Shown: piece by piece, positions 11,341 to 49,911 of the stretch
Numbering within the stretch: the first letter of the stretch is position 1
Layout of the letters: every line of letters starts with the position of its first letter
Assembly (NCBI GenBank): GCA_018656005.1
Contig: JABHZW010000021.1
Coordinates: 1-64,000, forward strand
Origin: Candidatus Pseudelusimicrobium marinum
GTDB lineage: Bacteria > Elusimicrobiota > Elusimicrobia > Elusimicrobiales > Elusimicrobiaceae
Reading direction: 5' to 3'
DNA: 64,000 bases
The notes under the pieces: generated by a model
The model's database searches: none
What the model saw: only the letters and a program-made list of their open reading frames with translations
Told to the model about the DNA's origin: nothing
Program-made: the position numbers and the translations under genes

Positions 11341-11925
11341 CCTTTTTTGGAAAACCCCGTGTGTAAGCACAGAGACAATCTAACCTCTCAATATTGTCAT
11401 TGCGAAGATTTTGGAGATTGCCACGAAAAACGAAGTTTTCCTCGCAATGACACCCGAGGAGAGGGTCTCTCCAAAATCTGTGGCAATCTCATTTTGAAAC
11501 TACCCCCAATCTCTCTTAGAGAGATTGGGGGTAGTTCTGTCATTCTCAGAGGGAGGCGAGTGTCTCGCCCGAAAGCGGGAATCCAGGGTAAAAAAGTAAA
11601 AAATCTGTGGCAATCTCATAAAATACATTGTGTCATCTTGAGCGGAGCGAGCTTTACGAGCGAAGTCGAAAGATCTTGGTATTATAGTGTGAAGTTAAAG
11701 ACAAAGATTCTTCGGCTTCGTTTCACTTCGCTCAGAATGACAAAGAATTTGAGAATGACATAGAATGACTTTACTACTCCCTAGTGCGAAAATGACAGAA
11801 ACTTGTGGCTAGGGGTTTTTAAATGAGATTGCCACGAAGTTGCAAAGCAACTTCTCGCAATGACAAAAAAATCCCTCTTGTCGGCTTCGCCGTCTTTCTC
11901 CCTTTTTAAAAAAGGAGAAAGTATT
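11341..11925. repeat. Intergenic cluster of palindromic repeats
   Basis: No convincing gene is present; the open frame here is translated repeat. Elements include GAGATTGCCACG...CTCGCAATGACA at 11414-11452 and 11824-11866, and the reverse-orientation end TGTGGCAATCTCAT at 11479 and 11606. There is also a CCCGAAAGCGGGAATCCAGG-type element near 11568, and a TGTCATCTTGAGCGGAGCGAGC to CTCAGAATGACA unit at about 11631-11741. The inner sequence of each element varies while the ends are kept. Confidence 0.75.
11498..11536. repeat. Perfect 19-bp-arm palindrome
   Basis: Arms 11498-11516 and 11518-11536 are exact reverse complements around a single T. The run of five C and five G near the arm ends is conspicuous in AT-rich DNA. 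Confidence 0.85.
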
Positions 11926-20489: not shown

Positions 20490-21062
20490 TTATACCACAC
20501 AATCGATATCAAAATCTATATATTTATATTCAACTCCATTAACTGTTTCAGTCGAAACCGTATATGTAAATGTACTATCAACCGTTCTACAAACATCTGG
20601 TATCAAGCATGCAATATTATGAGGTGACCCCGCAACACTCATAGGAGTTGTATCTGTTATTCCATCGTCATGACACAACCCATTTTGATAATCGCTAGGA
20701 ATTTCTGAATAGCTTCCTTCATAAACATCTTTATCTACATAAATTTTAAGTAGATCGGACGCTTTTTCAATAGCTAAAACACTTTCCTCTCGCACGGTAG
20801 GTTGTTTAACAGATCGCAAAGAAGTAGTTAAAACAGAAAAAATTGCAGCTACTATTATAGTTAATACTGTTATTGCAATAAGTGCTTCTACAATTGTAAA
20901 ACCTGAACACCTCTTGTCATTGCGGGCTTGGTCCGCAATCTTTCTATAAGATCCTGAAACAAGTTCAGGATGACATTTGTTTTGTTCAGGATGACAGATA
21001 TTTTGTTCAGGATGACATTTGTTTTGTTTAAGATGACAGATATTTTGATTTTTATTTTTCAT
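20490..21062 (-). CDS. Minor pseudopilin with a 54-residue repeat-filled leader
   Basis: The 190-residue prepilin has cleavage site G|FTIVEALIAI at residue 54/55, whereas prepilin leaders usually have about 6-20 residues. The leader holds four 7-residue units of the form QN(I/K)CH(P/L)(E/K), ending in CHPELVSGS, then YRKIADQARND. All of this is translated palindromic and tandem genomic repeat (20915-21052). The mature part looks like a GspI/PilV-type minor pilin. GAGGAAA precedes the ATG at 21062. Whether the long leader is tolerated or processed differently is not known. Confidence 0.8.
   Translation of the reverse strand: MKNKNQNICHLKQNKCHPEQNICHPEQNKCHPELVSGSYRKIADQARNDKRCSGFTIVEALIAITVLTIIVAAIFSVLTTSLRSVKQPTVREESVLAIEKASDLLKIYVDKDVYEGSYSEIPSDYQNGLCHDDGITDTTPMSVAGSPHNIACLIPDVCRTVDSTFTYTVSTETVNGVEYKYIDFDIDCVV
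20915..21052. repeat. Compound repeat inside a prepilin gene (palindrome plus four 21-bp units)
   Basis: The region joins TCATTGCGG...CCGCAATCTTTC to GATCCTGAAACAAGTTCAGG, followed by four 21-bp units containing CAGGATGACA with alternating TTTGTTTT and GATATTTT spacers. The length keeps the reading frame open. The same palindromic element lies between genes at 49751-49790. Confidence 0.85.
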
Positions 21063-49663: not shown

Positions 49664-49750
49664 ATAAACCCCTCTTATCTATATGATATTAATTTTGGAG
49701 GATAAAAGGTAGAGAATCAAAAATGTGTCATGCTGAATTTATTTCAGCAT

Positions 49751-49842
49751 CTTATAGAAAGATCCTGAAACAAGTTCAGGATGACAAAAAAAATGTTAGA
49801 AAGAAATGAGATTGCCACGTCGCTAACGCTCCTCGCAATGAC
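49751..49842. repeat. Two interspersed palindromic repeats
   Basis: AGATCCTGAAACAAGTTCAG and GATGACA (49755-49785) are followed by GAGATTGCCACG...CCTCGCAATGACA (49807-49842). They are the free-standing relatives of the repeats found inside the pilin leaders at 20437 and 20953. No gene is seen in 49664-50266. Confidence 0.8.
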
Positions 49843-49911
49843 AAAAATAAATCCCTCGTCTTTTTTCCTATTGGAAAAAATCCACTCCCTTTACAAAGGG
49901 AGAAAAAGAAA

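Follow-up and report, generated by a model that had tools for sequence, protein, structure and literature searches.

The minor pseudopilin gene studied here raises the question of how a prepilin leader can reach 54 residues and why such a leader is tolerated. Type IVb prepilins have leaders of about 15–30 residues. Leader length is one of the criteria that separate type IVa from type IVb prepilins, and before the subunits assemble, prepilin peptidase cleaves off the leader, which is kept at the cytoplasmic face (PMC7248040). The gene is located in a 64,000-nucleotide stretch of contig JABHZW010000021.1 from Candidatus Pseudelusimicrobium marinum, referred to below as the window (Table 1). Read directly, the leader and the start of the mature protein are MKNKNQNICHLKQNKCHPEQNICHPEQNKCHPELVSGSYRKIADQARNDKRCSG↓FTIVEALI (arrows mark predicted cleavage sites), with the first ATG at 21062 and AGAGG 5' of it. 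The first-pass annotation had placed a G↓FTIVE site after 54 residues; the direct reading and the PF07963 profile, which matches residues 50–75 (E 1.1e-6), both agree with this. The prepilin motif and the hydrophobic helix are present (G↓FTIVEALIAITVLTIIVAAI). Assembly genes gspE, gspF and secretin are within the window, and the order of the pseudopilin genes is the same in relatives. The focal genome has one prepilin peptidase gene (PF01478, E 1.6e-23). The named minor-pilin families GspI, GspJ, PilV and ComGE give weak matches to the focal protein, all under the curated cut-offs.

The focal leader contains no stop codon in frame 0, compared with 1 and 7 in the remaining frames. No further ATG, GTG or TTG codon was found in frame between its first codon and G↓F, and none lies between the repeat element and G↓F in the neighboring gene L045. 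A start codon downstream of the repeat, looked for as the finding that would speak against a translated repeat, is therefore rejected for both genes. This argues against an annotation artefact, in which the real start would be downstream and the repeat would be 5' untranslated. We infer that translation of the focal gene initiates at the first ATG, that the peptidase cleaves the leader and that the gene bears no cost.

Table 1. Features of the window discussed in the text
Feature	Start	End	Strand	Remarks
Focal minor pseudopilin gene	20490	21062	-	190 aa prepilin, 136 aa mature; pseudopilin gene no. 4 in the gspE-gspF operon
Prepilin leader, 54 codons	20901	21062	-	Predicted cleavage between Gly (20901-20903) and Phe
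Four 21-bp units	20964	21047	-	Encode QNICHLK QNKCHPE QNICHPE QNKCHPE; each unit traces to the element's 5' end (TGTCATCCTGAA)
61-bp palindromic A/J element	20915	20975	-	TGTCATCCTGAACTTGTTTCAGGATCT...GATTGCGGACCAAGCCCGCAATGACA, translated as CHPELVSGSYRKIADQARND
Next pseudopilin gene (L045)	19813	20481	-	Leader MKKLNKNKKICHTELVSVSNKKG↓FTLIELL
27-bp A half-element in L045 leader	20428	20454	-	Overlooked in the first-pass annotation
Pseudopilin with ordinary leader	21083	21550	-	MKNKKA↓FTLMELL; in-operon control
Pseudopilin with ordinary leader	21566	22102	-	MKIKNNFA↓FTLVELL; in-operon control
Pseudopilin with ordinary leader	22115	22612	-	MNKKA↓FTLLEVL; in-operon control
GspF/PilC-type platform protein	22632	23855	-	PF00482, E 6e-54
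GspE/PilB-type ATPase	23860	25581	-	
Secretin	25676	27232	-	PF00263, E 4e-43
61-bp A/A' element	49726	49786	+	Intergenic, free-standing
36-bp B element	49808	49843	-	Intergenic, free-standing
33-bp B element	38166	38198	-	Intergenic, free-standing
B + C element cluster	11395	11865	.	Intergenic; includes 96-bp composite (11395-11490) with a close relative in the leader at C28:6731-6828

The repeat-derived peptide in the focal leader includes QNKCHPELVSGS. Its tandem part has a 42-bp period (2.0 copies, 95% matches, score 156) and a 21-bp period (four copies); the two 42-mers are identical in 40 of 42 bases and each consists of two 21-bp units. The period analysis and the dispersed copies bear out the initial description of the extra part as translated genomic repeat with four 21-bp units. 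The peptides CHPELVSGS and YRKIADQARND, at first assigned to separate elements, are instead the two halves of one 61-bp element with the ends TGTCAT...ATGACA. Three near-identical 61-bp copies of this A/J element are found elsewhere, all intergenic (C11:12653-12713, C15:47850-47910 and C45:25341-25401). The free-standing copies reported at 49751-49842 are related elements in 49726-49843, and the second half of the focal element is absent there. The 5' end of the element recurs in the 21-bp units, and the intergenic copy at C45:25341-25401 also has one extra 5' unit of the 21-bp type; the tandem part therefore appears to have arisen by local multiplication of that 5' end. The focal 5' region folds more stably than its shuffles (z -2.8). 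A search of Rfam for structured RNA gave nothing worth keeping, and a known structured RNA is rejected as the identity of the repeat.

The nearest named contigs with this operon belong to Elusimicrobiaceae/Elusimicrobiales MAGs, with GspE about 65–70% identical. A clear orthologue occupies the focal position in 45 Elusimicrobiaceae contigs, for example MKKFLKNKKG↓VTILEGLIALTLLALVATGTFAVLLSTSRKTSQPDTREEMALAVEKA. Counted from the nearest Met, the leaders of these 45 syntenic orthologues have 9–14 residues (median 10) and no repeat. The focal leader thus exceeds them by about 44 codons, nearly all of which are repeat; the comparison is with other genera, the focal genus being represented by one genome. 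Relatives that share the leader sequence had been looked for as counter-evidence, and inheritance of the leader from relatives is rejected by the short leaders of all 45.

The repeats belong to families dispersed in the focal genome, as counted from pattern searches and fetched stretches of its 1.2 Mb. The element core CTGAACTTGTTTCAG has 34 matches genome-wide with up to 2 mismatches versus 1 for the reversed control, which excludes chance. B elements (TGTCATTGCGAGG...CCGTGGCAATCTC) have 57 matches versus 5 in the control, and C elements have 32 versus 2. Complete A elements are highly constant, mostly 61 bp with TGTCAT/ATGACA ends. B elements are 33–41 bp long, with inner stems that are very different yet retain pairing, and larger composites are also present. 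Inner stems such as GCGATTTATCGC, CAAATTTATTTG and AATTCGTTAGAATT differ wholly among copies and keep their palindromy, so the B family appears to be defined by structure rather than sequence, for the most part. Among A/A', A/J, B and composite elements overall, TGTCAT is found on one side and ATGACA or AATCTC on the other. In the composites a B element sits within the loop of another B (11395-11490, C28:5731-5826, C28:6731-6828, C11:17620-17747 and C39:3088-3215); closely alike composites of 96–98 bp occur at three places, so they seem to have spread as units. One A half-element (C62:17582-17603) lies shortly 3' of ...GGCTGGATCACCTCCTTT, the usual 3' end of 16S rRNA, and is probably in an rRNA operon spacer. 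Like MITEs, the 61-bp elements have terminal inverted repeats (TGTCAT...ATGACA). Two B leaders have what may be a target-site duplication of GGNTTY. The search for a mobilising enzyme covered Y1_Tnp/RAYT only; the Y1_Tnp profile (PF01797) had no match in the focal genome (assembly 93% complete) while the controls matched, and RAYT-driven mobility is rejected on this ground.

PF07963 matches 31 prepilin-motif genes in the focal genome, and repeats of two families, A and B, are within the leaders of 7 of them. The A-family leaders are those of L037 (MKNLFNNKKMCHAELVSASFSKTLKQVQGDKSIKG↓), L045 and the focal gene. The B-family leaders are those of L051 (MNKKAFKNLSLRGTKCRGNLG↓) and L058 (MNKKGFDSLSLRGTKCRGNLG↓), together with composites in L053 and L054. 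These seven leaders add up to 248 codons, with no stop in frame 0 versus 13 and 32 in the other frames. In all, about 67 repeat sites were found. Those in independently supported genes are all in prepilin leaders and precede a G↓F site, as the genome-wide search of ORFs proposed at the outset confirmed; the remaining sites are intergenic or in small ORFs without a Pfam match. In conserved genes, five or six matches to a single seed (e.g. C17:15351, C37:16092 and C49:3833) lack the rest of the element and are attributed to chance, and three element-spanning ORFs of 82–138 aa without a Pfam match were judged spurious. If insertions were even over coding DNA, and taking the 31 leaders, each about 8 codons long, as the target, the chance that all genic insertions fall in leaders would be about 1e-22 for seven independent events (7/7) and about 2e-13 for four (4/4).

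Some pilins of the focal genome are less clear at their 5' ends. In L040 (C28:45109-45216), an eighth pilin, the sole start codon is an ATG supplied by the last bases of a C element (AAGATGACA), and in L042 an A element is immediately 5' of the start codon. Both cases are of the kind expected if the repeats were untranslated. The B-type leaders contain internal TTG codons, and the start could fall within the element. L060 (C10:4932-4997) has a long leader, MVKCVRRIKALKKHKNRKKTKRYKKLF↓AYTLIELV, without a repeat, so other routes to long leaders exist. At the start codons of L031, L039, L046, L051, L058 and other pilins of this genome we find TATAATAAAAA(T/C)ATG, with a -10-like box about 6 bases 5' of ATG, as leaderless mRNAs would show.

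The number of elements in leaders exceeds the prediction from intergenic density (0.3 expected), so pure tolerance leaves an excess unexplained, although this excess may be inflated by duplication or conversion among pilins. It fits elements that insert preferentially at the prepilin start site (GGNTTYACA), which would make the leaders a target and not merely a refuge. All four B insertions end exactly at the junction ...AATCTC/GG[GT]TT[TC]ACA. L051 and L058 have a second GF-/AF-like copy before the element (MNKKAF../MNKKGF..), the mature parts of the four B-leader pilins do not form one clade (p-AU 0.011), and the L054 composite has close relatives that are free-standing at C17:11395 and C28:5731. 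However, A elements are about 12–18 bases 5' of the G↓F codons and thus off the junction, the intergenic right flanks are without GGTTTAC, and one inner stem variant is found in L051 and L058 and nowhere else, suggesting a common source by duplication or conversion. Because the junction is shared, the four B leaders are maybe not four events. The p-AU value speaks against one ancestral B insertion that was then copied by plain duplication of the gene, but conversion of 5' ends could still account for the pattern. The B leaders therefore reflect either an insertion-site preference or 5' ends spread among pilins by conversion, and we consider a preference for the prepilin start site unlikely.

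Parallel cases are found in other lineages. Of 341 genomes of the phylum searched with a pattern for a repeat followed by G↓F, 7 were positive, compared with 0 for the reversed control. In five genomes of genus g2, in the same family, the leaders of one prepilin subfamily, such as MYLQHKNRSKSVLGGFICRVILRSFYSESHPLSFKRAG↓FTLIELL and relatives, contain another palindrome (GTCATTCTGAG...CTCAGAATCT). Many such leaders in genome G045 have been lengthened to about 85–165 codons by units that keep the frame, among them LGCRVKTSRHDDNI and VILRSCNSGSQPF; leader units in g2 are also of the form LGCRVKTSRHDD. When a pilin is downstream, 38 of 42 g2 cassettes have a reading frame that stays open as far as G↓F, across 42–164 codons, a count that is not conditioned on an open frame; of the other four, two are in frame when read from the second conserved ATG. 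The other frames of the expanded leaders have about 9 stops per leader, a number that is conditioned on the open frame. These leaders, stop-free in one frame to 164 codons, again argue against a misplaced start, and with the scans of the focal gene and its neighbor they make the artefact highly improbable. In a third lineage, G176 of another family of the class, the leader MDLKCHCEEPVSTKQSHKENKLG↓FTLIELL has a good ribosome-binding site ahead of its B-type repeat. In the cassettes of G045, G046, G006, G042 and G063 (e.g. L214, L227 and L307), the long-leader prepilins are preceded by conserved TTGCATTG, about 9–14 T, GATAA and ATTTTGC-NNATGN-GCAAAAT; the homopolymer between promoter-like boxes suggests phase-variable pilin expression.

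Differences by codon position in 21 g2 leaders are 0.33/0.31/0.37 (0.30/0.30/0.40 in the repeat part), and those in the first 25 mature codons are 0.22/0.03/0.75; the rows are related to each other and the counts are not independent. The g2 leader peptide drifts almost neutrally with its frame kept, a pattern measured in g2 and not in the focal genome. The stem of the g2 repeat shows paired changes, with 94.9% of cells paired, 8 two-sided changes and 0 of 500 shuffles as high, while the peptide drifts. These paired changes may come from selection on the hairpin or from replacement by other repeat copies. In the former case the hairpin itself could be the selected feature, a palindrome at the coding start that controls translation or stability of pilin mRNA (or ends opposing transcripts), its translation being incidental. 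The stable folding of the focal 5' region is in line with such a role, and so is the position of the g2 repeat, which is 5' of pilins for most copies in G046 and for 26 of 38 in G045. However, folding and paired variants are expected of any palindromic repeat, and separate intergenic copies also differ pairwise, so the covariation may result from replacement by other copies. The repeat is also absent from most pilins of the same genomes, and intergenic copies in the focal genome far outnumber pilin copies. We regard selection for the hairpin as quite unlikely. The repeats could also be homology blocks for recombination among pilin genes (leader shuffling or gene conversion), retained for this purpose. 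PF07963 has 31, 76 and 118 matches in the focal genome (G000), G045 and G046, respectively, all of 1.2–1.4 Mb, and g2 leader cassettes are common to pilins with divergent mature parts. But the same picture is expected if pilin genes simply duplicated and their mature parts then diverged, and both repeat-bearing pseudopilins in the window are single-copy operon members. Retention for recombination is distinctly improbable.

The explanation that we find probable is a coding insertion of palindromic repeats, similar to the Rickettsia palindromic elements (RPEs), tolerated because the prepilin leader would remain on the inner side of the membrane and be cut off by prepilin peptidase. In this view the short palindromes (A/A' and A/J of 61 bp, B of 33–41 bp, and composites) would disperse in the genome, and gene-borne copies would be purged by purifying selection, save in the n-region of prepilin leaders. 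An insert that is in frame, stop-free and hydrophilic and spares G↓F(T)xxE would be nearly harmless, because the n-region lies ahead of the membrane-spanning helix and should remain in the cytoplasm and be taken off by the peptidase; only the discarded peptide would be altered. In the focal gene, the starting point may have been insertion of a 61-bp element into a leader some 10 codons long; slippage or recombination may then have multiplied the element's 5' end in frame-keeping steps of 21/42 bp. We infer that tolerance is due to removal of the leader, and the near-neutral codon pattern in g2 fits this. In Elusimicrobiaceae the leaders could instead be a preferred and maintained home of the repeats, with insertion at or near the conserved start of the pilin helix and a hairpin or repeat block that serves the pilins in expression control or leader recombination; leaders of more than 150 residues would be allowed since they are cut off. 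This we consider rather unlikely.

PMC10969869, citing Ogata 2000 and 2002, describes RPEs as dispersed palindromes found in frame in many unrelated genes and translated within the product. The comparison with RPEs made at first annotation was right in kind (a dispersed palindrome, in frame, with empty orthologues). However, RPEs are about 150 bp and occupy unrelated genes, whereas the elements here are 27–98 bp and their supported genic copies are only in removable prepilin leaders of one gene class. They are likened to the Rickettsia RPE family proper by description: they work like RPEs, but their length and their restriction to leaders keep them from being classed with that family. As with REP/REPIN elements and their RAYT transposases, the palindromes are short, dispersed and intergenic and occur alone or as inverted pairs, but PF01797 is lacking and the TGTCAT/ATGACA ends differ from the GTAG/CGTC tags that PMC3733652 gives for the REP superfamilies. 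The intragenic MITEs ERIC, BOX and QMITE1 fuse ORFs in frame, according to PMC10969869, and are alike in being mobile palindromic DNA that lengthens a gene product. As in type IVb prepilins, the leader is longer than that of type IVa and is predicted to be cut by prepilin peptidase; here, however, the extra length is due to genomic repeats, differs between genes of the same operon and is not seen in orthologues. Our literature search of open-licence papers found nothing on repeats or intragenic MITEs in prepilin leaders.

In-frame repeats in genes are known chiefly from Rickettsia so far, and how its proteins cope with them is an open question. Here the inserts that can be placed in supported genes sit in a discarded protein segment, in at least three lineages of one phylum. 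Prepilin leaders may far exceed the usual 5–30 residues, so that software for gene calling or signal-peptide prediction, if trained on short leaders, will mis-start or miss such pilins. The pattern offers a simple, testable rule for where selfish DNA survives inside genes. In this gut-type Elusimicrobiota bacterium it suggests that a cell can keep repeats inside genes when the peptide they encode is discarded ahead of the protein's use.
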